Source: Kineococcus sp. TRM81007
Lineage (GTDB): Bacteria > Actinomycetota > Actinomycetes > Actinomycetales > Kineococcaceae
NCBI RefSeq assembly: GCF_022669155.1
Contig: NZ_JALBVB010000056.1
Span: 590,355-632,327 of the forward strand
DNA: 41,973 bases
Direction: 5' to 3'
Below are positions 21,402-33,891 of this stretch, piece by piece; within the stretch, counting starts at the first letter, position 1, and each line of letters opens with the position of its first letter. The position numbers and the translations under genes are program-made. The notes below the pieces were generated by a model. It worked only from the letters and a program-made list of their open reading frames with translations, was not told the origin of the DNA and searched no databases.

Positions 21402-22661
21402 ATGTCGGAGTCGCTGGACCTGAGCAAGCCGCTGACGCCGCCCGCGGCGCCGGCGCCGGCCGCGAGCGACCTGAACCTGACGCCCCCGGCCCCGGTGCCC
21501 GTCGTCGCCGACGAGCAGGCCGAGAGCATGATCCCGCTGGACGAGTCCACGCGCGCCGAGCTGACCCGCAAGGCGCAGGCCTTCGTCGCGGACCTCGCCG
21601 AGCAGGACCCGCGCAGCCCGGCCTTCACCAAGCGCGTCGACGACATCACGCGCATGGGGGAGCAGGAGGTGCGCGCCTCGGCGCAGGTGTCCAACCGGAT
21701 GCTCGAGCGCCCGGCGTCCTCGCTGGCCGGGGCGAAGGGGCAGAAGGCCTCCGGCCCGGGCGCGGACGCGCAGGTGAAGGTCGCCAACACGCTGCTGGAC
21801 CTGCGCCGCACCGTGACCGACCTCGACCCCGGGCGCGCCGACCTCAAGGGCGCGAAGAAGATCCTCGGGATCATCCCGATGGGGAACAGGATCCAGCGCT
21901 ACTTCGAGCGCTACCAGGACGCGCAGTCCCAGCTCGACGCCATCATCAAGGCCCTGGCCAGCGGTCAGGACGAGCTGCGCAAGGACAACGCCTCCATCGA
22001 GTCCGAGAAGCAGCACCTGTGGACCACGATGGGCAAGCTCACCGAGTACGCCACCCTCGCCAAGGCGCTGGACGAGGCCACGGTCGCCAAGGTCGAGGAG
22101 CTGCGGGTGACGAACCCGCAGGCCGCCGAGGCGCTCACGGCGGACGCGCTGTTCCCGATCCGCCAGCGCCACCAGGACCTGCTGACCCAGCTCGCCGTCA
22201 GCGTGCAGGGCTACCTGGCGCTCGACCTGGTGCGCAAGAACAACATCGAGCTCATCAAGGGCGTGGACCGCGCGCAGACCACCACGGTCGCCGCGCTGCG
22301 CACCGCCGTCGTCGTCGCGCAGGCCCTGGCCAACCAGCGGCTCGTGCTGGACCAGATCAACGCCCTGAACACGACGACGAACAACATGATCCTGTCGACG
22401 TCGGAGATGCTGAAGCAGCAGACCTCGCAGATCCACCAGCAGGCCGCCTCCGCCACCGTGGACGTCGCCACGCTGCAGAAGGCGTTCGACAACGTCTTCG
22501 CCACCATGGACGCCATCGACACCTTCAAGCAGCGGGCGGTGGAGAGCATGGCCACCACCGTCGACGCCCTGGAGGGGCAGGTGCACCGCTCCCGCTCGTA
22601 CCTGGAGCGGGCGCGCAACGGCGAGGGCGACGGCTCCGGCCCGGCGCTGCCGGGGCGGTGA
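21402..22661 (+). CDS. telA: TelA/KlaA-family toxic anion resistance protein
   Basis: Soluble, mostly helical 419-residue protein of the TelA family linked to tellurite and other toxic-anion or membrane-stress resistance; its mechanism is unknown. A Pro/Ala-rich N-terminus (about 40 residues) precedes the family core with IIPMGNRIQRYFERYQDAQSQ, LELRVTNPQAAE and long helices ending in QRAVESMATTVDALEG. I chose the ATG at 21402 for GAGGGGA nine bases upstream; GTG at 21369 would add 11 residues and could be leaderless. It is the first gene of the Ter cluster and its stop overlaps the next start (GTGA). Confidence 0.9.
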   Translation: MSESLDLSKPLTPPAAPAPAASDLNLTPPAPVPVVADEQAESMIPLDESTRAELTRKAQAFVADLAEQDPRSPAFTKRVDDITRMGEQEVRASAQVSNRMLERPASSLAGAKGQKASGPGADAQVKVANTLLDLRRTVTDLDPGRADLKGAKKILGIIPMGNRIQRYFERYQDAQSQLDAIIKALASGQDELRKDNASIESEKQHLWTTMGKLTEYATLAKALDEATVAKVEELRVTNPQAAEALTADALFPIRQRHQDLLTQLAVSVQGYLALDLVRKNNIELIKGVDRAQTTTVAALRTAVVVAQALANQRLVLDQINALNTTTNNMILSTSEMLKQQTSQIHQQAASATVDVATLQKAFDNVFATMDAIDTFKQRAVESMATTVDALEGQVHRSRSYLERARNGEGDGSGPALPGR

Positions 22662-23554
22662 GCGACGTGGCCGAGCGCGCACCGCGAGCCCTGCGGGCCC
22701 GCGCCCGCAGCGGTGACGTCGTGGTGCGCCGGCACGGCGGGCCGGCGCAGGCGCCGCCGGAGGTCGTCTCCCGCCGTCTGCGCAGCCGCACCTGGCGCGC
22801 GGCGAACTCGTGGTGGCTGGCGATCCCCGCGGCGGGGCTGCCGTGGCTGGCGTTCCTCTACATGGGCCTGCGCGGGCGCCGGCCGCAGTGGGTGCTGGCG
22901 GCGATGGGCTACCTGCTCGCCGCGGGTGGCGCGGCGACGCTCGTCGCGATGGACGGACTGCTGCTCGGCGTGCTCGGGTGGCTCCTGGTCGTCGGGACCT
23001 GGGGGACGGGGCTGGTGCACTCGATCATGGCGAACTCCCGATGGCTGCGCATCAAGGCCGCCTTCGCCGGTGAGCACGCGGCGCTGGAGCAGGCGCCGCC
23101 CGCCCCGGTCGAGCCGCCGCCGCCGGCGGACCCCGTGCAGGAGCTGCGAGCGCGGCAGCGCCAGACGGTGCAGCGGGCCAACCGCGCCGGTGGCCGCCTG
23201 CCCGACGGGGCCGTACCCGCGGTGCGCGACCTGGACGACGTGCTGCGCCCGGTGCTGGAGCACGTGGCCCGCCGTGGCGCCCAGGTCGAGGAGCTGCACA
23301 ACCTCGAGGCCATCGTCACCGAGTACCTGCCCGGTGCCCTGGACCGCTACCTGGAGCTGCCGGAGGACTACGCGCTGAACCACCGCGGACCCTCGGGGGC
23401 CACGCCCGCCGAGGAGCTGCTCAACCAGCTCGGACTGCTGCTGGAGGGCGCCCGCGAACTGCAGCAGGCGGTGCACGACCACGACGCGCGCCTGCTGCAC
23501 GAGCAGGGCCGCTTCCTCGACGCGAAGTTCCGCCGCTCGGACCTGGACCTGTAG
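22658..23554 (+). CDS. XpaC-like membrane partner of TelA (first copy)
   Basis: A 298-residue membrane protein. A basic N-terminus is followed by about three hydrophobic segments (roughly 52-70, 78-97 and 99-120), a Pro-rich linker (PPAPVEPPPPADP) and a helical C-terminal domain. That domain (about 190-298) carries EYLPGALDRYLELPEDYA, TPAEELLNQLGLLLEGARE and a final RFLDAKFRRSDLDL. The C-terminal pattern (YLP...YL.LP) and the coupling to telA recall Firmicute XpaC-TelA pairs, so I infer an XpaC-like role; this is not a firm family match. The GTG start overlaps the telA stop. The next gene encodes a related C-terminal domain. Confidence 0.72.
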   Translation: MSDVAERAPRALRARARSGDVVVRRHGGPAQAPPEVVSRRLRSRTWRAANSWWLAIPAAGLPWLAFLYMGLRGRRPQWVLAAMGYLLAAGGAATLVAMDGLLLGVLGWLLVVGTWGTGLVHSIMANSRWLRIKAAFAGEHAALEQAPPAPVEPPPPADPVQELRARQRQTVQRANRAGGRLPDGAVPAVRDLDDVLRPVLEHVARRGAQVEELHNLEAIVTEYLPGALDRYLELPEDYALNHRGPSGATPAEELLNQLGLLLEGARELQQAVHDHDARLLHEQGRFLDAKFRRSDLDL

Positions 23555-23562
23555 GAGGCGTC

Positions 23563-24627
23563 GTGGGGGTCGACCTGGGCAAGGGCGGGGCGCAGCCCCC
23601 CGAGCAGCCGCGCGAGGGCGCCGCACCCGGTGCCACCGGTGCCCCGCCGGGGGCGGGCGCCGCCGTCCCCGTCCGCTCGACGCCCCCACCGGCGCCGTTC
23701 CGGCCGCGGCCGCCCTCCCCGTCACCGCTGCCCGCCCTGCCGGGGAAGCGGCGCGGGAAGGGCCCGGACGGTGCGCACGCCGCCTGCCGGGACGAGGACG
23801 AGGCCGAGGCCCGGGAGCTGGAGGCCCTCGGCGTCGACGAGTCCCGCCTCACCCCGCTGGGTGCCACGCTGCCGAAGGTGGGGTTCGTCCCGGACCCCGT
23901 CCTGCAGGCCGTCCGCTTCGGCTGGATGGGGTTGTGGATCACCCTCTTCGCCGTCAGCTGGGCACCCCTCGCCATGGTGGTGATGTTCGCCTGGATCGGC
24001 GCCAACGCCGCCTACGAGGGGCACAAGAAGGAGCTGCGCCGCCGGCGCAAGCGGGAGATGCGCGCCCTGCGCGACGAGATGGCCGCCGGGCGCGGCCCGA
24101 TGCCGCTCGCCGGGCCCCCGCGCCCGCCGTGCCGGCCGGGCCGGCCGGTCCAGCCCCCCGTGCCGCCGCGGCCGTTCCCCGAGCGCCGCGTCCCGGACGC
24201 CGTGCCGCCCGTCTCCGACGCCGAGCGCGCCCTCATCGCCACCGTGCACCGCGTCGACACCAGCGGCCGCTTCGAGCGGGCCGACGTCGCCCTCGTGCAC
24301 GAGGTCGCCGAGCTGCTCGGACCGCTGCTGCTGCGGGTGGCCGAGCGCGGCGCGGACCCGCGGGTGCGCCACGACCTGGAGACGCTGGCCGCCGAGCACC
24401 TGCCCCGCACCGTCGAGGACTACCTGGCCCTGCCCGCGGACTACGCCCGCGAGCACCGCACCCCCGCGGGCACCACGCCCGCCGAGGAGCTGCGCAAGCA
24501 GCTGCACCTGCTCCTGGAGGGCGGCCGCCGGCTGCGCGACGCCGTGCACGACGCCGACGTGGAGCGCCAGCAGCAGCAGAGCCGCTTCCTGGAGGCGAAG
24601 TTCCGCCGCAGCGAGCTGGACCTGTGA
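23563..24627 (+). CDS. XpaC-like membrane protein (second copy, TerD-like N-tip)
   Basis: A 354-residue protein. It begins MGVDLGKGG, close to the TerD start MGVSLSKGG, then a long Pro/Ala/Gly-rich stretch (to about 65). One long or two short membrane segments follow (about 118-150, GWMGLWITLFAVSW onward), then a basic KKELRRRRKREMR patch and a second Pro-rich linker. Its C-terminal domain (about 220-354) parallels the preceding protein: HLPRTVEDYLALPADYA, TPAEELRKQLHLLLEGGRR and RFLEAKFRRSELDL. GTG follows AGGAGG by five bases. Probably a duplicate of the upstream gene with a different N-terminal half. Function unknown. Confidence 0.72.
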   Translation: MGVDLGKGGAQPPEQPREGAAPGATGAPPGAGAAVPVRSTPPPAPFRPRPPSPSPLPALPGKRRGKGPDGAHAACRDEDEAEARELEALGVDESRLTPLGATLPKVGFVPDPVLQAVRFGWMGLWITLFAVSWAPLAMVVMFAWIGANAAYEGHKKELRRRRKREMRALRDEMAAGRGPMPLAGPPRPPCRPGRPVQPPVPPRPFPERRVPDAVPPVSDAERALIATVHRVDTSGRFERADVALVHEVAELLGPLLLRVAERGADPRVRHDLETLAAEHLPRTVEDYLALPADYAREHRTPAGTTPAEELRKQLHLLLEGGRRLRDAVHDADVERQQQQSRFLEAKFRRSELDL

Positions 24628-24670
24628 CCCCGGCCGACGGGTGCCGGGGCGGGGACGGGAGGAGCCGGAC

Positions 24671-25465
24671 GTGACGCTCGACGTGCAACTGGTCGGCACG
24701 ACCACGCAGATGGCCGTCGTCACCCTGCGGCCGGGGCAGGTGGTGTACGCCGAGGCGGGCAAGTTCCTGTTCTCCTCCGGCGACGTGACGATGGAGACGA
24801 AGCTGTCCGCCCCCGGCGAGAAGGGCGGCGAGGGCGGCCTCGGCGGCCTGCTGCGCGGTGCGGTCGGCGCGGGCAAGCGGGTGCTGGCGGGGGAGTCGTT
24901 CGCCTTCCAGCACTTCACCACCCCCGGCGGCGACGGGCTGCTGGGGCTGGCCGGCGTGCTGCCCGGCGAGATGCGCCACCTCGAGCTGGACGGCGCGACC
25001 ACCTGGTTCGCCGAGAAGGACGCCTTCGTCGCCGCGGAGGCCGGGGTGCGCTTCGACATCGCCTTCTCCGGCGTGGGGCAGGGCCTCATGGGCGGCGAGG
25101 GCTTCGTCCTGGAGAGGTTCTCCGGGCGCGGCTCGCTGCTCATCGCCGGCGCCGGCGACTTCATCGACCTCAACCCCGCCGACTACGGCGGCACGGTGCG
25201 GGTCGACACCGGCTGCGTCGTCGCCTGGGACGACCGCATCCAGTACAGCGTGGAGAGCGTGGGCCGGCTGAACCGCCAGGGCGTCATGAGCGCCGTCTTC
25301 GGCGGCGAGGGCCTGACCCTGGCCACGCTGCGCGGCGACGGCCGCGTCATCCTGCAGTCCGTCACCATCGAGGGCTTCGCCAAGGCGCTCGCCAAGAACG
25401 CCGTCAAGCCCGACCAGCAGGGCCTGGGCGCCATCGGCGGGATGTTCTCCGGCTCGCGCGGCTGA
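24671..25465 (+). CDS. TIGR00266/AIM24 family protein
   Basis: A 264-residue beta-rich soluble protein of the AIM24/TIGR00266 family, found in bacteria, archaea and as mitochondrial Aim24; biochemical role unknown. Family blocks include [20 protein letters not shown], a Gly-rich loop ([14 protein letters not shown]), [20 protein letters not shown] and [18 protein letters not shown]. The GTG start follows GGAGGA. It lies inside the Ter cluster just before terD, and such genes are recurrent Ter neighbours as I recall. It is followed by a 142-nt spacer with a 12-bp direct repeat. Confidence 0.87.
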
Positions 25466-25556
25466 CCGCGGAACCACCACCGGACCCCGGCGGAACCCGC
25501 GCGCCCCCCGCGCGCGTTCACCCGGCGCGGGCAGCGCCCGCACCACGCAGGACCGA

Positions 25557-25580
25557 GCACGACACGAAGCACGACACGAA
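25557..25580. repeat. 12-bp tandem repeat before terD
   Basis: GCACGACACGAA occurs twice without a gap, followed by a degenerate third copy (GCAGACCGACGAA). The repeat ends about 16 nt before the terD ribosome site GGAG. It is purine- and A-richer than its surroundings. Confidence 0.7.
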
Positions 25581-25607
25581 GCAGACCGACGAAACGGAGC
25601 GCACACC

Positions 25608-26183
25608 ATGGGCGTCAGCCTCAGCAAGGGCGGCAACGTCTCCCTCACCAAGGAGGCGCCGGGCATGACCCGCGCCGTCATCGGGCTCGGCTGGGACGCG
25701 AACAGCTTCACCGGCTCGGAGTTCGACCTCGACGCGCAGGCGATCATGGTCGGCGCGAACGGCAAGGTCCCGAACGACGGCTACTTCGTCTTCTTCAACC
25801 AGCTGAAGTCCCCCGAGGGCTCCGTGGAGCACACCGGTGACAACCGCACCGGTGAGGGCGACGGCGACGACGAGAAGATCAACGTCGACCTCTCCGCGGT
25901 CCCGGCCGAGATCGACAAGGTCGTCTTCACCGTCGCCATCTACGACGCCGACACCCGCCAGCAGTCCTTCGGCCAGGTGCGCAACGCGTTCATCCGCGTG
26001 GTGAACGCCGACGGCGGCACCGAGGTCGCGCGCTACGACCTCTCCGAGGACGCCTCCACCGAGACCGCCATGGTCTTCGGCGAGCTGTACCGCAACGGCG
26101 CGGACTGGAAGTTCCGCGCCGTCGGGCAGGGCTACGCCGACGGCCTGCGCGGCATCGCGACCGACTTCGGCGTCAGCGTCTGA
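25608..26183 (+). CDS. terD: TerD family calcium-binding stress protein
   Basis: A 191-residue full-length TerD. It opens with [19 protein letters not shown] and has [37 protein letters not shown] and the acidic cluster [15 protein letters not shown]. The Asp residues of DLDA and of [13 protein letters not shown] form the paired calcium sites of the family. TerD proteins are cytosolic and act in tellurite, phage and membrane-stress resistance together with TerC. The ATG follows GGAG eight bases upstream. It has its own spacer on both sides, with a repeat before and a hairpin after, so it may be expressed more than its neighbours. Confidence 0.96.
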
Positions 26184-26209
26184 CGTTCCCCGTCCCGGAC
26201 GGCGGCGGC

Positions 26210-26238
26210 CCGCCGCGCGGTCGTGCACCGCGCGGCGG
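26210..26238 (+). terminator. Hairpin between terD and terC
   Basis: Perfect 12-bp stem (CCGCCGCGCGGT and complement) with a 5-nt loop, 27 nt after the terD stop. There is no T-run. It may terminate or attenuate terD transcription and leave terC partly to read-through or to a weak promoter downstream. Confidence 0.6.
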
Positions 26239-26316
26239 TTCGCCGTGAGCCACCGCTCCTGAGAAGGTGCGGTGTCCGGCCCGCGCCACGGGCCCGCACG
26301 AACAGGAAGCAGACGC

Positions 26317-27510
26317 GTGATCCTCAAGACCTACGGCTGGTCGTTCGCGGTGACGATCGCCGGGCTGGTGCTGGCCGCCTGGTACGGCCTGTCGGCCCAC
26401 CTCGGCATCTTCCAGGCCCTGCTGCTGGTGGCCATCCTCTGCGTCCTCGAGATCAGCCTGTCCTTCGACAACGCCGTCGTGAACGCGACGGTGCTGGAGA
26501 GGATGAGCGACTTCTGGCAGAAGATCTTCCTCAGCGTCGGCATCATCATCGCCGTCTTCGGCATGCGGCTGGTCTTCCCGATCGTCCTGGTCAGCGTCAC
26601 CGCCGGCCTGGGGCCGGTCGAGACGGTCGAGCTGGCCCTGCGCGGCGGGGACCCGGAGGAGCCGGGGACCTACGGCTACGCGCTCAACGAGGCGCACCCG
26701 ACGATCGCGGCGTTCGGCGGGATGTTCCTCATGATGCTCTTCCTCAACTTCCTCTTCGGGGAGAAGGAGCACCACTGGCTCAAGCCGCTGGAGCGCCTGG
26801 GCGACCGCGTCGGCCGCCTGGAGGCGGTGCAGGTCATCGTCGCCGGGGCCGTCCTGCTCATCGCCGCCGAGACCTTCGCCGCCGAGCACGAGAGCACCGT
26901 CCTGGCGTCCGGCCTCGCCGGCATCCTCACCTACCTGCTGGTCAACGGCCTGGGTGAGCTGTTCAACGTCGAGGACCACCTCGAGCACGGCGAGGACCGC
27001 GCGGACGCCGAGCGCGGCACTCCCGTGGAGGGCGGCGGCGCAGCCGTGCCCGGCCAGAGCGGCACCAGCGCCACCGGTGGCGGCGGCGCGGCCGGACCGA
27101 GCGGGCCGGCGAGGGCGACCGGCAAGGCGGCGTTCTTCCTGTTCCTGTACCTGGAGGTCCTGGACGCCTCGTTCTCCTTCGACGGCGTCATCGGCGCGTT
27201 CGCCATCACCTCCGACCCGATCATCATCGCGATCGGCCTGGGCGTGGGCGCCATGTACATCCGGTCCATGACGGTGCACCTGGTGCGCGAGGGCACGCTG
27301 GCGCAGTACCCGTACCTGGAGAACGGCGCCCTCTGGGCGATCGGCGCCCTGTCGGTCATCCTGATCATCAGCATCGAGGTGCACGTCCCCGAGGTGGTCA
27401 CCGGCCTCATCGGCCTGGCCTTCATCGTGGCCGCCCTCATCAGCTCGATCGTGCGCAACCGGCGCCACCCCGAGGAGGCGCACGTGGAGGCGCACGCCGC
27501 CGCGGGCTGA
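26317..27510 (+). CDS. terC: TerC-like DUF475 integral membrane protein
   Basis: A 397-residue polytopic protein of the TerC/DUF475 branch. It opens ILKTYGWSFAVTIAGLVLA, then VLEISLSFDNAVVNATVL, the acidic transmembrane motif of TerC-like metal transporters, and repeats it in the second half as EVLDASFSFDGVIGAFAIT. The halves are joined by about 45 disordered Gly/Ala/Thr-rich residues (near 225-270). In Ter systems TerC anchors TerD-type proteins at the membrane and is proposed to move or sense metal ions. I chose the GTG at 26317 (VILKTYG) because the family starts there and AGGAAG lies upstream. Confidence 0.92.
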   Translation: MILKTYGWSFAVTIAGLVLAAWYGLSAHLGIFQALLLVAILCVLEISLSFDNAVVNATVLERMSDFWQKIFLSVGIIIAVFGMRLVFPIVLVSVTAGLGPVETVELALRGGDPEEPGTYGYALNEAHPTIAAFGGMFLMMLFLNFLFGEKEHHWLKPLERLGDRVGRLEAVQVIVAGAVLLIAAETFAAEHESTVLASGLAGILTYLLVNGLGELFNVEDHLEHGEDRADAERGTPVEGGGAAVPGQSGTSATGGGGAAGPSGPARATGKAAFFLFLYLEVLDASFSFDGVIGAFAITSDPIIIAIGLGVGAMYIRSMTVHLVREGTLAQYPYLENGALWAIGALSVILIISIEVHVPEVVTGLIGLAFIVAALISSIVRNRRHPEEAHVEAHAAAG

Positions 27511-27531
27511 CGCGGCGGGCCGGGACGGTGG

Positions 27532-27556
27532 GCCGGGCGGCGTCGCGCCGCCCGGC
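27532..27556 (+). terminator. Hairpin after terC
   Basis: Perfect 11-bp stem GCCGGGCGGCG/CGCCGCCCGGC with a 3-nt loop, 22 nt after the terC stop. It ends 20 nt before the ribosome site of the next gene. It is either a terminator or an attenuator inside the Ter cluster. Confidence 0.55.
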
Positions 27557-27589
27557 GGGGTGCGGGTGGTGAGCGCGGAGGAGGACGAG

Positions 27590-28426
27590 GTGGCGGGCGG
27601 GAGTCGGCCGGCCGAGGCGGTGCACAACTTCCTGGGCCGGCCCGGGCCGAGGCGCAGCGATCGCACGCTGGCCGACCACCTGGCGCCGCGACCGGTGCCC
27701 GCGGCCACCCCCTCACCCGCGCCGCGCCCCGCTCCGGCCCCCCCGCCGCCCCGGCCCGCGGCGACGGCAGCACCACCGCCCGCCACCGCGCCACCGCCCG
27801 CCGCGGTGGGCACCGCGCGCACCTCCGAGAGGCTCGTCGTCCTCGACGACGACACCCCGTCGTGGCGGGTGCCGACCGCCGAGCGGGGCACCGGCACGCT
27901 GCGCGTGCAGCTGGAGTGGGAGCCGCTGGTGACCGCCTCCGGGCTGCAGCGCTCCACCGACCTGCACCTGGGGTGCCTGTGGGAGACCCGCGACCGCCGC
28001 AACGGCCTCGTGCAGTCCCAGGGCGAGCTGCTCGCCGCCCCCGGGTACGGTGCGCGCCAGGTGCTCCGGCTCGGGGCCCGCGGCGCGCAGGGCGAGGAGC
28101 TGCTCGTGGACACCCGCCACCTGGACCTGCTGCGCCGCGTGGTGCTGTACCTCTACACCACCCGCTCCGCGCCGCCCGGCTACCCCGAGCTCGCCCCGCA
28201 CGTGACGCTGCGCCGCCGCGACGGTGCGCGCCTGCAGGCGTGGGCCACCGGTGCACCCGCTGGTGCGCGCACCTGCGCGCTGCTCTCCGTCCACGACGTG
28301 GGCGGCGAGCTCGTGGTGCGCAGGGAGAACGAGTACTTCACCGGCCCGCAGCGCGAGGTGGCCGAGGCCTACGGCTTCGACGACCTGACGTGGGGACCGG
28401 ACGGCACCGTGCCGCTGCACGCCTGA
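27590..28426 (+). CDS. TerA-like tellurium resistance protein
   Basis: A 278-residue protein. A Pro/Ala-rich N-terminal region (about 30-75) leads to a TerD-fold domain of the TerA type: VQLEWEP, DLHLGCLWETRDRRNGLVQS, a middle segment LLRRVVLYLYTTRSAP, then CALLSVHDVGGELVVRREN and YFTGPQREVAEAYGFDDLTW. The family usually reads DLDLGC with a calcium-type Asp; here His replaces the second Asp, so metal binding may be altered. I chose GTG at 27590 for GGAGGAGG five bases upstream; GTGs at 27560-27569 are possible but lack a ribosome site. It is followed by a second TerD. Confidence 0.78.
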   Translation: MAGGSRPAEAVHNFLGRPGPRRSDRTLADHLAPRPVPAATPSPAPRPAPAPPPPRPAATAAPPPATAPPPAAVGTARTSERLVVLDDDTPSWRVPTAERGTGTLRVQLEWEPLVTASGLQRSTDLHLGCLWETRDRRNGLVQSQGELLAAPGYGARQVLRLGARGAQGEELLVDTRHLDLLRRVVLYLYTTRSAPPGYPELAPHVTLRRRDGARLQAWATGAPAGARTCALLSVHDVGGELVVRRENEYFTGPQREVAEAYGFDDLTWGPDGTVPLHA

Positions 28427-28494
28427 ACCGCCGGCGCCACCGGGCCCGGCGGGGACGCACGACGGACGAGACACCGCACGAGAGGAGCAGGCAC

Positions 28495-29073
28495 GTGGTG
28501 GACCTGAACAAGGGGCAGAGGCTGTCGCTGAGCAAGGAGGGCGGTGGCACGCTCACACGCGTCTCCATGGGCCTGGGCTGGGACGCCGTCGCCAAGGGGT
28601 TCCTGGGGCGCAGGAAGTCCATCGACGTCGACCTCGACGCCTCCTGCCTGCTGTTCGACGCCTCCGGGAAGCTGGTGGACACCGTCTGGTTCCAGCAGCT
28701 GCGCAGCCAGGACGGGTCCGTGACCCACACCGGCGACAACCTCACCGGCGAGGGGGAGGGCGACGACGAGGTGATCCTCGTGGACCTGCCCGCCGTCCCG
28801 GCGCAGGTCGCCGCGCTCGTGTTCACCGTGAACAGCTTCACCGGCCAGGACTTCTCCTCCGTCGAGAACGCCTACTGCCGGCTGCTGGACAGCGCGCAGC
28901 CGCGCACCGTCGAGCTGGCCCGCTACCGGCTCACCGGGTCCGGCAGCCACACCGCCCAGGTCATGGCCAAGCTCAGCCGGGACGGGGCCGGGTGGGCGAT
29001 GACCGCCATCGGCCAGCCCGCCTCCGGCCGCACCTTCCGCGACCTGATGCCGGCGATCACCCCGCACCTCTGA
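28495..29073 (+). CDS. TerD family protein, second copy
   Basis: A 192-residue TerD paralogue: LNKGQRLSLSKEGGGTLTRV, MGLGWDAV, SIDVDLDASCLLFDASG, WFQQLRSQDGSVTHTGDN and TGEGEGDDEVILVDL. The acidic calcium-binding residues of the first TerD are kept (DLDA, GDNxTGEGxGDDE). The N-terminus differs (VVDLNKGQRL rather than MGVSLSKGG), and the domain has a short basic insert FLGRRKS. GTG at 28495 follows AGGAG; the adjacent GTG at 28498 would also work. It is the last Ter structural gene before the four-enzyme set, 66 nt upstream of it. Confidence 0.93.
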   Translation: MVDLNKGQRLSLSKEGGGTLTRVSMGLGWDAVAKGFLGRRKSIDVDLDASCLLFDASGKLVDTVWFQQLRSQDGSVTHTGDNLTGEGEGDDEVILVDLPAVPAQVAALVFTVNSFTGQDFSSVENAYCRLLDSAQPRTVELARYRLTGSGSHTAQVMAKLSRDGAGWAMTAIGQPASGRTFRDLMPAITPHL

Positions 29074-29139
29074 GCGACGCCCCCGCCCCACCGACGACCC
29101 CGCCCACCTCTCCGACCCGACGGGAGGAGGAGCGCCGCC

Positions 29140-30390
29140 GTGCGCCACTTCGCCGAGCTCGACCCCGCGCGCACCGCGGCGCTCTTCCTGCACCCCCCGC
29201 AGCCGGTGGACCTCGCCGCCGGGCGCGACGAGCTCGCCACCGCGCTCGGGGCCACCATCTACTGCCCGGCGACTCGGCAGCGCCTGGCCGGCGACCTGCT
29301 GCGCCTGGCCCGCCGCGGCGTGCGCAGCGCCGTGGTGTGCCTGGAGGACTCGGTGCCCGACGACCGCGTCGGCCAGGCCGAGGACACGCTGGTGCGGGAG
29401 CTGGCGGACCTCGCCGGGCGCCCCGAGTGGGCCGGCGGACCGCCGCTGATGCTGTTCCTGCGCGCGCGCACCCCCGAACAGCTCCTCGCCGTCGTCGAGC
29501 GCAGCGGCGTCGGCGTGGACTGCCTGCAGGGCTTCGTGCTGCCCAAGTTCGGCGGCACCGGCCAACCGGACCCGCGGCGCTGGACGGCGGCCGTGCGCCG
29601 GGCCTCCGAGCTCGCGGGCCGGCGGCTGTGGGCGATGCCCGTGCTGGAGAGCCGCGACATCGCCCACCTGGACACCCGCCTCGAGGCGCTGCTCGGCGTG
29701 CGCGACGTCCTCGACGAGCACCGCGACCTCGTCCTCGCCGTGCGCACCGGCGCCACCGACCTGTCCGCCGCGTACGGCCTGCGCCGCCCGCGCGGGGCGA
29801 CCGTGTGGGACGTGCGGGTCGTCGCCGACGTCCTCGGCGACGTCATCAACGTCCTGGGTCGCGCCGACGGCAGCGGGTACCCCATCACCGCGCCGGTGTG
29901 GGAGCACTTCACCTCCGGCGCGCGCGTCTCCCGCACCACCCTGTCGGCCGGGCCGTTCGCCGGCTCCGGCGCCGAGGGGCTGCGCGAGCAGCTCATCGCC
30001 GAGGACCTCGACGGGCTGGTGCGCGAGCTGGAGCTGGACCGGGTCAACGGGCTGCAGGGCAAGACCGTCATCCACCCCTCGCACGTCGCCGTCGTGCACG
30101 CGGTCTCCGTGGTCACCCACGAGGACTTCTGCGACGCCTCCGACGTGCTCGCCCAGTCCGCCGGCGGCGTCATGGCCTCCAGCTACCGCAACAAGATGAA
30201 CGAGGCCGGCCCGCACCGGCCGTGGGCCGAGCGGGTGCTGGCCCGCGCCCACGCCTTCGGCGTCGCCCGCCCCGAGGTGTCGTACGCGCACCTGCTCCAG
30301 GCGCAGGACGACGCCTGGGACGCGTTCGCACAGCCGAGGGACGAGCCCGCCGGTGACGCCGGCGGGGACGACGCGGCGGTGGGCCGGTGA
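29140..30390 (+). CDS. HpcH/HpaI-CitE-like C-C lyase of the Ter enzyme set
   Basis: A 416-residue TIM-barrel enzyme of the HpcH/HpaI-citrate lyase superfamily, in the branch linked to Ter loci. Typical blocks are RSAVVCLEDSVPDDRV (acidic metal site), QGFVLPKFG, WAMPVLESRDIAHL, VRTGATDLSAAYGLRRP, and KTVIHPSHVAVVHA near 308-321. The C-terminus (ASSYRNKMNEAGPHRPWAERVLARA) is characteristic. The natural substrate is unknown; a condensation or cleavage step in a nucleoside-like metabolite pathway is inferred from its partners. GTG follows GGAGGAGGAG. Its stop overlaps the next start in GTGA. Confidence 0.87.
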   Translation: MRHFAELDPARTAALFLHPPQPVDLAAGRDELATALGATIYCPATRQRLAGDLLRLARRGVRSAVVCLEDSVPDDRVGQAEDTLVRELADLAGRPEWAGGPPLMLFLRARTPEQLLAVVERSGVGVDCLQGFVLPKFGGTGQPDPRRWTAAVRRASELAGRRLWAMPVLESRDIAHLDTRLEALLGVRDVLDEHRDLVLAVRTGATDLSAAYGLRRPRGATVWDVRVVADVLGDVINVLGRADGSGYPITAPVWEHFTSGARVSRTTLSAGPFAGSGAEGLREQLIAEDLDGLVRELELDRVNGLQGKTVIHPSHVAVVHAVSVVTHEDFCDASDVLAQSAGGVMASSYRNKMNEAGPHRPWAERVLARAHAFGVARPEVSYAHLLQAQDDAWDAFAQPRDEPAGDAGGDDAAVGR

Positions 30391-31799
30391 GGACCGCGGG
30401 CACCTGGAGCGGCACCTGGGTGCAGGACCGGCTGGGGGTGCGGCTGGACGGCCCGCCCGGCGCCGACGGCCTGGACGTGCGCGACCTGCTGGGCCTGGCG
30501 CTGCGGCGCAACCCCCGCCGGGCCCACCTGCTCGTCTCGACGGTGCTGGGCAAGCACGTGCCCACCGACCCGCGCCTCGTGCGGGCCGCGGGGTTGCGCC
30601 TGGGAGCGCTCGTCGCGCACGCGCTGGGGGCACCGGCCGGTGCGGGCGCGGACGCGGCCGCCTGGCGCACCGCGCTGACCGGGGACGTGCCGGACGGCGC
30701 GGCGGCGGCCCCGGTCCTCGCCGCCGCGGAGGCCGCCACCGCCGCCGTGCCCGCGGCGCTCGTCGTGGGCTACGCCGAGACCGCCACCGGCCTCGGGCAC
30801 GCGGTCGCCGACGCCCTGGGCGCCGCCTGCCTGCACTCCACCCGCCGCGCGGCGCGCGGCGCCCCCGGCTACGCCGGGTTCGAGGAGGAGCACTCGCACG
30901 CCACCGGCCACCAGCTGCTACCCACCGAACCGGCCGTCCTGGCCCGGCTGGCGGACCCCGCCGCGCCGCTCGTGCTCGTCGACGACGAGCTGTCCACCGG
31001 CCGCACCGTCGCCAACACGCTGCGCGCCCTGCACGCGCGCACCCCGCGCGAGCGCTACGTCGTGGCCGCCCTGGTGGACGTGCGCGCCGGCGACGACCGC
31101 GGCCGGCTGGACGCGCTGGCCGCCGAGCTCGGCGCCCGCGTCGACGTCGTCGCCCTCGCCGCCGGGACGGTGCTGTTGCCCGACGGCGTCCTGGAGCGCG
31201 GTGCGGAGCTGGCGGCGCGGACCGCGCCCGTCGCGCCGCGCGAGAGGCCCGTGCCCGGCGTCCACGAGGTGGTGCTCCCGTGGCCGGCGCAGGTGCCCAC
31301 CACCGCCCGCTTCGGCACCCCGCCCGGTCACGCCGCCGGGGCCGCCGCGGCCGACGCGGCCGACGCGCTGGCCGCGGCCCTCACCGGGGCCCGGGGCGGG
31401 GCCGGTGACGTCCTCGTCCTCGCCAGCGAGGAGCTGATGCACGCACCGCTGCTGCTGGCGCGGGAGCTGACCGCCCGGTCGCCGGGGCCGGTGCGGTTCT
31501 CCTCCACGACCCGCTCGCCGGTGCTCGCCGTGGACGCCGACGGGTACGCGGTGCGCTCCTCGCTCGCCTTCCGCGGCCACGACCCGGCCGTGGACGGCGC
31601 CGGCGTGCGCTACGCCCACAACGCCGACCGCACCGCGCGGGGTGAGCCGCCGTGGGGTGCGCTCGTGCTCGTCGTGGACTCCGCCTCCGACCCCGCCGCC
31701 CTGCGCGCCCCGGACGGCGCGCTCGCGGCGCTCGCACCGCTGGCCGAGCGGCTGCACCTGGTCACCCTGCCCGCCGACGACTGGAGCCGGACCGCGTGA
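30387..31799 (+). CDS. Phosphoribosyltransferase with TRSP domain
   Basis: A 470-residue protein. The N-terminal half is a PRTase of the Ter-linked type: RRAHLLVSTVLGKHVPTDP at 45-62, ALVVGYAETATGLGHAVADAL near 124-143, FEEEHSHATGHQLLP, and the PRPP loop VLVDDELSTGRT at 196-207. The C-terminal part (about 310-470), with VLVLASEELMHAPLLLAREL, VRFSSTTRSPVLAVD and the terminal LHLVTLPADDW, matches the TRSP domain. It should transfer ribose-5-phosphate from PRPP onto an unknown base-like acceptor. It is coupled at both ends by GTGA overlaps. Confidence 0.88.
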   Translation: MRTAGTWSGTWVQDRLGVRLDGPPGADGLDVRDLLGLALRRNPRRAHLLVSTVLGKHVPTDPRLVRAAGLRLGALVAHALGAPAGAGADAAAWRTALTGDVPDGAAAAPVLAAAEAATAAVPAALVVGYAETATGLGHAVADALGAACLHSTRRAARGAPGYAGFEEEHSHATGHQLLPTEPAVLARLADPAAPLVLVDDELSTGRTVANTLRALHARTPRERYVVAALVDVRAGDDRGRLDALAAELGARVDVVALAAGTVLLPDGVLERGAELAARTAPVAPRERPVPGVHEVVLPWPAQVPTTARFGTPPGHAAGAAAADAADALAAALTGARGGAGDVLVLASEELMHAPLLLARELTARSPGPVRFSSTTRSPVLAVDADGYAVRSSLAFRGHDPAVDGAGVRYAHNADRTARGEPPWGALVLVVDSASDPAALRAPDGALAALAPLAERLHLVTLPADDWSRTA

Positions 31800-32965
31800 G
31801 CACACCCCTGCCCGAACCCCTGCGGGGCCCGGAGTTCTCCAGCTACGCGCCCGACGAGGTCGGCTGGCTGCTCACCGACCTGACCGGCGTGCCGCTGGAG
31901 GCGCCCGCCGAGGAGCGCGAGGAGGCCGTGCAGTCCGGCGGCGCCCACTACGCGGAGTCGCTGCCGGTGGAGTACCTGCCCAGCGCCGAGTACGGCGCGC
32001 TGTTCGAGACCGCGCTGCGGCGCAGCGCCCGACGTGTCGCCCTCGGCGTCGGCGTGGTCGCCGAGCTGCTGCGCGCCGAGCGGGGTGAGCGGCTGGTCGT
32101 GGCGTCGCTGGCGCGCGCGGGTACGCCGGTGGGCGTGCTGCTGCGCCGGTGGGCGGCGCGCGCGGGCCTGGACTGGCCGCACTACGCGGTCTCCATCGTG
32201 CGCGGGCGCGGCATCGACGCGCTGGCGCTGCGCTGGCTGGCGGCGCACCACGACCCCGCGGACGTGGTGTTCCTCGACGCGTGGACCGGCAAGGGCGCCA
32301 TCACCCGGGAGCTGTCGGCGGCGCTGGCCTCCTCGGGCGTCGGCGGCTTCTCCGACGAGCTGGCGGTGCTGGCCGACCCCGGTGCCTGCGTGCGCACGTT
32401 CGGCAGCCGCGAGGACTACCTCGTGCCGTCGGCGTGCCTGAACTCCACCGTCTCCGGCCTGGTCAGCCGCACCGTCCTGAACGACCGCCTCATCGGGCCG
32501 GACCGCTTCCACGGCGCGAAGTTCTACGCCGACCTGGCCGGCGCGGACGTCTCGAACCGCTTCCTCGACGTGGTGTCCGGGTTCTTCGACGACGTGGCCG
32601 GTGAGGTCCCCGCCGCCGTGGCGGCCGTGCGGGCGGGGGAGCGCGATCCCACCTTCGCCGGCTGGGCGCAGGTGGAGCGGATCTCCGCCGAGTTCGGCAT
32701 CGGCGACGTGAACCTCGTCAAACCCGGTGTGGGGGAGACCACGCGGGTGCTGCTGCGGCGGGTGCCGTGGCGGGTGCTGGTGCGCCCGGACGCGGAGCTG
32801 GAGCACCCCGGCGACCTGGCGCACCTGCGGCTGCTGGCCGACCAGCGCGGCGTTCCCGTGCAGGAGGTGCCGGGCCTGGCGTACAGCGCCGTCGGCCTGA
32901 TCCACCCCAGGTACACGCGCGGCGCCACCGGGGCGGACGGGCGCGCGGCCCAGGTGGCCCCGTGA
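31796..32965 (+). CDS. StiP/PELOTA-domain phosphoribosyltransferase-like protein
   Basis: A 389-residue protein of the family annotated as 'cysteine protease StiP', which by its fold is a second Ter-linked PRTase with a C-terminal PELOTA RNA-binding-like domain. Signature blocks are FSSYAPDEVGWLL at the start, GAHYAESLPVEYLPS, VVASLARAGTPVGVLLRRW, HYAVSIVRGRGID, VFLDAWTGKGAI near 155-166 and DYLVPSACLNSTVSGLVSRT. The C-terminal 80 residues (GETTRVLLRRVPWRVLV onward) are the PELOTA part. Protease activity is doubtful. It is coupled to the PRTase before it and the HAD after it by GTGA overlaps. Confidence 0.88.
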   Translation: MSTPLPEPLRGPEFSSYAPDEVGWLLTDLTGVPLEAPAEEREEAVQSGGAHYAESLPVEYLPSAEYGALFETALRRSARRVALGVGVVAELLRAERGERLVVASLARAGTPVGVLLRRWAARAGLDWPHYAVSIVRGRGIDALALRWLAAHHDPADVVFLDAWTGKGAITRELSAALASSGVGGFSDELAVLADPGACVRTFGSREDYLVPSACLNSTVSGLVSRTVLNDRLIGPDRFHGAKFYADLAGADVSNRFLDVVSGFFDDVAGEVPAAVAAVRAGERDPTFAGWAQVERISAEFGIGDVNLVKPGVGETTRVLLRRVPWRVLVRPDAELEHPGDLAHLRLLADQRGVPVQEVPGLAYSAVGLIHPRYTRGATGADGRAAQVAP

Positions 32966-33891
32966 GCGGGGACGGCACCGTGAGCGGTGTGCTGGCGGCC
33001 AGCGACCTGGACCAGACGCTGGTGTTCTCCGAGCGTTCGGCCGGCGTGGACGTCGCCGGCCTGGTGCCGGTCGAGGACTACGACGGCCGCACGATCTCCT
33101 GGGTGACGCCCGCGGCGTGGGAGGTGCTGGGCGAACTGGTGGCGTCGGGCGCGTTCGTGCCCGCCACCACCCGCACCCCGGAGCAGTACCTGCGCATCCG
33201 CTGGCCGCAGCGGCCCCCGCACCTGGCGGTGTGCGCGAACGGCGGGGTGCTGCTCGTGGACGGCGAGCCGGACGAGGCGTGGACGGCGCAGGTGCGCCGG
33301 AACCTCGGCGGCTGCGCACCGCTGGAGCGCGTGCACGCGGAGGTCGCCCGGGTCGTGGGCGAAGCGCGCGCGGCGGCGCCGGGTTCCGCGGAACCCGCGG
33401 TGCGGGACGTGCCCGGGTCGTTCTGCTACGCGGTGCTGCGCGACGGGCAGCGCCCGGCGCTGGAGGGCGCGCTGCTGGGGGACCTGACGGTCCTGCTGGA
33501 CGGCTGGGGGTACGTGGTGTCCCTGCAGGGCCGCAAGCTGTACGCGGTTCCGCGGCCGCTGACGAAGTCGGCGGCGGTGGCCGAGGTGGTGCGTCGCGGC
33601 GGGTACGGCGGTCTCGTCGCCGCCGGCGACTCGCTGCTGGACGTCGACCTGCTGGTGGCCGCCCGCGCCGCGGTGCGCCCCGGGCACGGGGAGCTGTTCC
33701 GCACCGGGTGGGAGCACCCCGGGGTGCGGCTGCTGGAGGCGTCCGGCGCACGGGCGGGGGAGGAGACGGCCCGCTGGCTGCTGGCGCGGGTGCGCGGGGC
33801 GGGCAGCCCGTCCCGCGGAGTTCAGAAGGGCGGAGTTCAGAAGGAGTGCTCGGGTCCCGGGAACGTGCCCTCGCGCACCTCGTCCGCGTAG
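32962..33891 (+). CDS. HAD-family phosphatase of the Ter enzyme set
   Basis: A 309-residue HAD-superfamily hydrolase. The nucleophile motif [10 protein letters not shown] holds Asp15 and Asp17, motif II is [13 protein letters not shown] near 65, the motif III lysine is in PLTKSAAV and motif IV is [12 protein letters not shown] near 220. A cap domain lies between. It probably removes a phosphate in the last step of the Ter metabolite pathway. The GTG at 32962 overlaps the upstream stop; a second GTG at 32980 is possible. The final 18 residues lie antisense over the panB 3' end, include part of a duplicated GVQK unit, and probably are not part of the fold. Confidence 0.88.
33816..33845. repeat. 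15-bp tandem duplication across the HAD tail and the panB stop
   Basis: CGGAGTTCAGAAGGG and CGGAGTTCAGAAGGA lie head to tail (14 of 15 identical). On the plus strand they encode [10 protein letters not shown] in the HAD tail. On the minus strand they place a second in-frame TGA after the panB stop. Confidence 0.85.

Follow-up and report, generated by a model that had tools for sequence, protein, structure and literature searches.

What do biosynthetic enzymes do in a bacterial Ter stress locus? We addressed this question with a gene cluster of Kineococcus sp. TRM81007, located in a window of 41,973 nucleotides (contig NZ_JALBVB010000056.1, positions 590,355 to 632,327; G000:C55:590355-632327 in our numbering), which is the whole stretch of DNA that was analyzed. 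Twelve co-oriented open reading frames, all of them present on the + strand as initially annotated, lie between positions 21402 and 33891 of the window, and the last four encode a CitE-type lyase, a PRTase_2-TRSP phosphoribosyltransferase (PRTase), StiP, and an HAD phosphatase. Its combination of PRTase and HAD genes with genes for TerD, TelA, and a TerC-type protein places the locus among the Ter systems with a biosynthetic module. A PRTase/HAD/lyase module in Ter systems has been described with reference to Anantharaman et al. 2012 (PMC7824862, PMC8115787), and a nucleoside product for the Ter enzymes is a published proposal that still stands as a prediction in the available text (PMC8115787). 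We propose, with about even confidence, that this is a Gram-positive-type Ter stress locus whose four enzymes form one co-translated ribosylation pathway dependent on phosphoribosyl pyrophosphate (PRPP), with a product that would be read by the Ter proteins.

The arrangement of the four enzyme genes was investigated first in the window and then in related loci. GTGA overlaps at 30387, 31796, and 32962 join the four genes. These three overlaps had been annotated correctly but are not the only ones, since a start of Xpa1 at 22658 is possible and would place a further GTGA overlap, the fourth, at the stop codon of TelA. Across 15 loci including the window, 37 of the 40 junctions between unfused enzyme genes had the stop codon of one gene overlapped, as ATGA or GTGA, by a start codon in frame with the following gene; two of the other three were CTGA overlaps and one was out of frame. 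This conservation of start-stop overlaps implies, at the level of gene arrangement, that the four enzymes are co-translated. Moreover, PRTase_2-TRSP and StiP share one open frame in 5 of 15 loci. When both the PRTase and the TRSP part were required in the StiP frame, 71 of 80 collection loci with both proteins carried the fusion, four carried a part, and five kept the proteins separate (K. rubinsiae, two Streptomyces, and two viral-collection loci). Of the 296 genomes of a phylum sample, 12 encoded a full-length lyase, and these 12 were also the ones with a full-length StiP. Judged from these patterns, the four enzymes belong together, and the locus is more than a chance arrangement because of the overlapped junctions and because StiP occurs in 11 of 11 Kineococcus genomes examined.

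All four enzyme assignments of the initial annotation held, since domain searches placed the products in the claimed families (PF15617, PRTase_2-TRSP, StiP-PELOTA, and solved HAD chains). A profile of the lyase (A6) matched CitE-type structures, with 3qll as the best (E = 3.6e-11). A single-sequence phmmer search of the lyase returned only two SAKe chains, which we take to be designed repeat proteins; these were set aside, the profile search having given CitE-type lyases. PRTase_2-TRSP combines a type I PRTase fold, resembling nucleobase PRTases, with a PRPP loop that holds the acidic pair, and its function is predicted on both grounds. The HAD gene had no Pfam match. It matched 6cj0 and 6d3v, two solved chains of HAD type named "trehalose phosphatase", and the motifs DLDxT, TxR, K, and GDxxxD, which we take to be those of HAD enzymes, aligned in 12 homologues, consistent with an HAD phosphatase of the trehalose-phosphatase type. 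One HAD of a Ter module has a near-identical counterpart in a solved "trehalose phosphatase"; by this sequence match, it seems that structure and assay of a Ter-type HAD enzyme are already available under another name. Literature scanned by title and abstract start showed no connection between this solved phosphatase and the Ter HAD, in queries none of which paired both names.

The predicted structure of StiP (predicted local distance difference test score, 79.7) matched PRTases together with an L7Ae-type domain. The model shows a type I PRTase fold and, in its PELOTA_1 part, an L7Ae/L30e fold. Its top structure match was a capsule multienzyme, over the CriT part, which is described as an O-ribosyltransferase (PMC10299916, PMC12096443). 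In CriT, two separated acidic residues are described as replacing the DD pair, and an enzyme of this type would be expected to have their equivalents in StiP as well. By sequence, the StiP profile matched no PDB chain at E ≤ 0.1, and a single-sequence search against the PDB gave L7Ae-type chains with E values of 0.08 or higher. All 39 rows examined show the StiP loop as D[GA]WxGKG, one contig supplying two of them.

The family name of PF11202, the NCBI names, and the annotation of plasmid genes present StiP as a cysteine protease, in which case the locus would couple proteolysis to stress. No invariant Cys column was found among 10 (A1) or 21 (A2) homologues, the best columns holding Cys in 8 of 10 and 20 of 21, respectively, and on this absence the protease was rejected; we give it almost no credence. 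The 50 matches listed per fold comparison were mostly PRTase or L7Ae/L30e entries, and no cysteine protease stood out among them, although such a list by itself excludes nothing. Since the predicted enzyme folds suggest a ribose-bearing small molecule, the label "protease" is probably wrong. StiP could also be no enzyme at all, acting like PyrR as a regulator that senses PRPP or a nucleotide, binds RNA through the L7Ae-like domain, and controls the pathway. PyrR itself retains a normal PRPP loop, whereas the StiP loop is of the D[GA]WxGKG type throughout. The k-turn motif of the L7Ae/L30e family is NExxK, and in StiP (G/A)ExTR stands in its place. Moreover, fusion to PRTase_2 suggests that StiP is a catalytic partner, and we consider a regulatory StiP unlikely, if still worth attention.

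For the ribosylation pathway that we favor, we infer that both PRTases would use PRPP and that the steps would follow one another as set out here. PRTase_2-TRSP would transfer ribose 5-phosphate onto a first acceptor, whose carbon skeleton the CitE-type lyase would make or trim. StiP, the second PRTase-fold protein, with its L7Ae-like domain, would add a further ribose 5-phosphate or handle the first product, and its acceptor may be an alcohol group, as for CriT in capsule synthesis. The HAD enzyme would take off the 5-phosphate. TerD/TerA-like proteins would then bind the ribosylated small molecule; at the cell envelope, their partners would be DUF475/TerC, TelA, and the membrane genes, on which the product may act. 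The bond in the product could be N-glycosidic, as in a nucleoside, or O-glycosidic, as with CriT, and the modeled folds fit both.

A comparable chemistry has been described for CriT-CrpP of Haemophilus Bcs3 and for Cj1432 of Campylobacter, where a PRTase-fold enzyme transfers ribose 5-phosphate from PRPP and an HAD enzyme then dephosphorylates (PMC10299916, PMC12096443). These systems differ from the window in that their product is a polymer and that the available parts of both papers describe no L7Ae-like domain. Literature scanned by title and abstract start showed no StiP-CriT link, with no query pairing the names and Anantharaman et al. 2012 not covered. In a bolder version, StiP would be a new class of PRPP-dependent O-ribosyltransferase that uses its L7Ae-like domain and attaches ribose 5-phosphate to a hydroxyl of the PRTase_2 nucleoside or of RNA, and dephosphorylation by the HAD enzyme would yield a ribosyl-ribonucleoside signal or an RNA mark for the Ter proteins; we regard this version as improbable. 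Alternatively, the HAD enzyme and StiP might act on sugar or trehalose phosphates, so that the module makes an envelope saccharide and not a signal molecule. This would agree with the deposition of the solved Ter-type HAD as a trehalose phosphatase, with the capsule polymer made by CriT, and with an envelope role that has been suggested for the ter operon of Klebsiella (PMC9933665). However, Pfam matched none of the 12 genes to a glycosyltransferase family (four genes having no match at all) and PRTase_2 is similar to nucleobase PRTases, and a saccharide product seems to us rather improbable.

Several points weigh against a PRPP-dependent ribosylation pathway tied to Ter proteins. The activities of all four enzymes are predicted. 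In StiP, the vicinal acidic pair of PRPP loops is not present, its Foldseek comparison gave no row that attained E = 0.001, and a fold match of a model does not prove activity. Trehalose-phosphatase assays suggest that the HAD enzyme may use a hexose phosphate and not ribose phosphate (PMC6838324). A Brevibacillus halotolerans plasmid (L181, 6491-10047) carries lyase, PRTase, and StiP genes and no HAD or Ter gene was found in the 19 kb examined. Similarly, the IMG/VR contig UViG_3300019373_000210 (L136, 607-16357) carries lyase, PRTase, StiP, HAD, and ATP-grasp genes, and its 21-kb stretch holds no TerD, TerC, or TelA gene; thus, the link of the enzymes to Ter proteins is not absolute. The neighbors of the enzymes in this contig are a papain-fold deamidase-type gene and FtsK, VWA, Sel1, Macro, and ADP-ribosylglycohydrolase genes. 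The setting with Macro and ADP-ribosylglycohydrolase, a single case, is consistent with a product that holds a ribosyl bond, as in ribosyl-ribose.

Is the locus a reduced form of the pathway, as the initial annotation suggested from the lack of TerB and an ATP-grasp enzyme? Neither gene lies in the locus, and neither was found in any of 19 other actinobacterial loci or of the best 80 actinobacterial loci of a genome collection, which are mostly from Streptomyces; two contigs belong to both sets, and several loci end at contig ends. ATP-grasp did appear, in the same scans, in Klebsiella, Citrobacter, Pseudomonas, and two contigs of the viral collection. TerB turned up in the plasmid and viral-collection loci only, apart from a solitary copy in this Kineococcus genome, at the C terminus of a 574-residue frame that lies some 400 kb away from the window (G000:C55:187062-187415, 87.4 bits). 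The absence of TerB therefore holds for the locus but not for the genome, and a genome-wide search recovered this one partner and not the other. Indeed, the best ATPgrasp_Ter match in this genome reached 38.9 bits, versus 133.4 bits for the Klebsiella control protein, and such weak matches were not counted because the model matches unrelated ATP-grasp proteins (in 13 of 14 control genomes). The Klebsiella ATP-grasp protein as a query gave no match in this genome, a negative that would become informative only alongside a control genome with a known match.

A Ter-type ATP-grasp gene is often present in Ter loci without being universal, and hence we did not treat it as defining. The order lyase-PRTase-StiP-HAD occurs without ATP-grasp on Alkaliphilus, Lactococcus, and Mycolicibacterium plasmids, two of which are from Bacillota, and none of the three Bacillota loci examined had ATP-grasp; Aromatoleum and Polaromonas plasmids carry ATP-grasp, PRTase, HAD, StiP, and lyase genes. 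In a tree of 25 StiP proteins, all loci without ATP-grasp fell on one side of a single branch (support, 77/59), and the ATP-grasp label needed one change in 77% of bootstrap trees. This tree has weak branch support, a long-branch warning, and no fixed root, and it leaves out an Acinetobacter phage row (L177) in which no ATP-grasp was found.

Loss of ATP-grasp and TerB from the locus, or their action in trans, would be compatible with the TerB domain found elsewhere in this genome, with the ATPgrasp_Ter matches of 117 to 128 bits that 6 of the 12 StiP-positive genomes of the phylum sample carry elsewhere, and with the tree, whose unfixed root leaves room for loss. Against it stand the low ATPgrasp_Ter score of this genome and the empty Klebsiella query, the other 6 of the 12 genomes, which had no ATPgrasp_Ter at E = 1e-15, and an absence that spans the Actinomycetota loci and all three Bacillota loci. 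The copies of the six positive genomes (L168-L173, probably Streptomyces) also speak against action in trans, as they lie in 16-kb stretches without module genes; they occupy a shared locus, about 7 to 10 kb into each stretch. A reduced pathway is thus quite improbable and the earlier suggestion was not supported. We treat the presence of ATP-grasp as a lineage feature, and by its gene content the window carries the usual Gram-positive form of the Ter cluster.

In the enterobacterial plasmid Ter locus (terZABCDEF plus enzymes), TerD/TerA/TerC-type genes are accompanied by the PRTase, HAD, StiP, and lyase families that the window also has. On these plasmids, ATP-grasp, PRTase, HAD, StiP, and lyase genes are divergent from terZABCDEF, and TerB and VWA/TerY-type genes are present; in contrast, the window has its lyase, PRTase, StiP, and HAD genes without ATP-grasp or TerB and with TelA, AIM24, and DUF475. 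Plasmid pFI430, recorded for the laboratory strain Lactococcus cremoris MG1363 (L180, 6550-16672), carries lyase, PRTase, StiP, an HAD match (53 bits), TelA, three TerD genes, and DUF475, with no ATP-grasp annotated or found, like the window. It differs in that the enzymes come first, YceG is present, and no Xpa or AIM24 is annotated in the stretch. Of the 78 loci L058-L135, 77 are Streptomyces Ter loci; these have the lyase, PRTase, StiP, HAD order, and in the longer ones the enzymes stand beside TerD, DUF475, and TerA, as in the window. In Streptomyces, however, PRTase and StiP are usually fused and a divergent TerD lies beside the lyase.

Pfam assigned eight of the twelve genes (TelA, AIM24, two TerD, DUF475/TerC, C-C_Bond_Lyase, PRTase_2+TRSP, and StiP+PELOTA), which backs the initial labels of the non-enzyme genes among them, and the domain and structure-sequence matches support the proposed joining of a Ter locus to a PRTase/HAD/lyase module. 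The other four were placed by comparison, as TerA-like, HAD, and two "Xpa" paralogues still without a family. Xpa1, read from 22673, had no Pfam family at E ≤ 0.001. Their earlier label, "XpaC-like", found no Pfam support, as none of 12 Xpa members matched an XpaC model at E ≤ 1; they may still be distant homologues. The label "TerA-like" stood on its match to the C-terminal half of a Pseudomonas plasmid TerA (49 bits) and its alignment with Klebsiella TerA, but not on Pfam, where no match passed the cut-off. The DUF475 gene may start at the GTG at 26317, since its NF010613 family match begins at residue 17. For the second TerD, phmmer gave 184 bits when Klebsiella TerZ was the query and 120 bits when it was the window's first TerD. 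Further TerD domains lie elsewhere in this genome (G000), at C34:34549-35109 (289-residue frame), C18:53617-54681 (two domains within one 629-residue frame), and C39:82996-83505 (one domain in an 808-residue frame).

Table 1. Genes of the Ter locus, with positions in the window
Gene product	Position	Strand	Evidence
TelA, toxic anion resistance protein, 419 aa	21402..22661	+	PF05816, 314.5 bits
Xpa1, membrane-type (judged by eye), adjoins TelA	22658..23554	+	41% identity with Xpa2; GTGA overlap at TelA stop
Xpa2, paralogue of Xpa1, 354 aa	23563..24627	+	41% identity with Xpa1
AIM24-family protein, 264 aa	24671..25465	+	PF01987, 190.7 bits; TIGR00266, 93.1 bits (cut-off 96.6, just missed)
TerD domain protein (first), 191 aa	25608..26183	+	PF02342, 285.5 bits
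DUF475/TerC-like membrane protein	26272..27510	+	PF04332, 411.2 bits; PF03741, 69.7 bits; NF010613 above cut-off
TerA-like protein, proline-rich N terminus, then C-terminal TerA half	27560..28426	+	49 bits with Pseudomonas plasmid TerA; TerA alignment
TerD domain protein (second)	28498..29073	+	PF02342, 153.4 bits; among queries nearest Klebsiella TerZ
CitE/HpcH-type TIM-barrel C-C lyase, 416 aa	29140..30390	+	PF15617, 362.5 bits; CitE-type structures by profile
PRTase_2 + TRSP, 470 aa	30387..31799	+	Canonical PRPP loop VDDELSTGRT
StiP + PELOTA, 389 aa; PRTase-like domain (altered loop D[GA]WxGKG) and L7Ae-like domain	31796..32965	+	PF11202, PF15608; fold matches
HAD phosphatase, trehalose-phosphatase type, 309 aa	32962..33891	+	6cj0/6d3v, E 7.8e-10; HAD motifs

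A single transcript for the twelve genes is plausible from their spacing, because the widest gap is only 142 bases (25465 to 25608). A promoter scan of the window, of a kind not suited to Kineococcus, found none, and of four terminator-like sites (1.6 expected) only one lay on the + strand, within the DUF475 gene. PADLOC, run on 9 of the 12 proteins, gave as its sole match a weak JetC coiled-coil on TelA (19.7 bits); PHROGs (7 of 12) matched only TelA and one TerD, and with NCBIfam (10 of 12) DUF475 alone passed a cut-off.

Beyond the genus, StiP was found in 19 of 198 genomes of an order sample and in 15 of the 296 genomes that make up the phylum sample, both samples being partial draws; of these 15, 12 scored above 300 bits. 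Six Kineococcus loci (L036, L037, L038, L040, L044, and L045) share the gene order of the window with at least one extra Xpa-type frame, so that each has at least three such frames versus two in the window; four others (L046-L049) end at contig ends. Upstream, two genes that are presumably map and ppgK occur in L036, L038, L040, L044, L045, and the sister-genus locus L039, and map alone in L037. Downstream, panB/nadE-like genes flank the window locus and were also found in L046, L047, and L049, and they were not found in the 3 to 4 kb downstream in L036-L040, L044, L045, and L048. Downstream neighbors thus vary inside the family while upstream neighbors are constant where the sequence covers them, and the stability on the upstream side speaks against the locus having entered the family recently. 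None of six loci of other families in the order, about 20 kb each, had map/ppgK/panB/nadE-type flanks.

Taken together, the locus is a member of a known Ter stress-response system that is widely shared in its Gram-positive form, and the modeled folds suggest that it builds a ribose-carrying small molecule. The name "cysteine protease" for StiP may mislead experimenters, and the fold evidence points to a concrete chemistry, PRPP consumption followed by dephosphorylation. The enzyme set is widespread, with 2,567 plasmid records holding a StiP relative. Its four-enzyme Gram-positive form offers a smaller system for reconstitution, and pFI430, which carries such a set, a tractable model.

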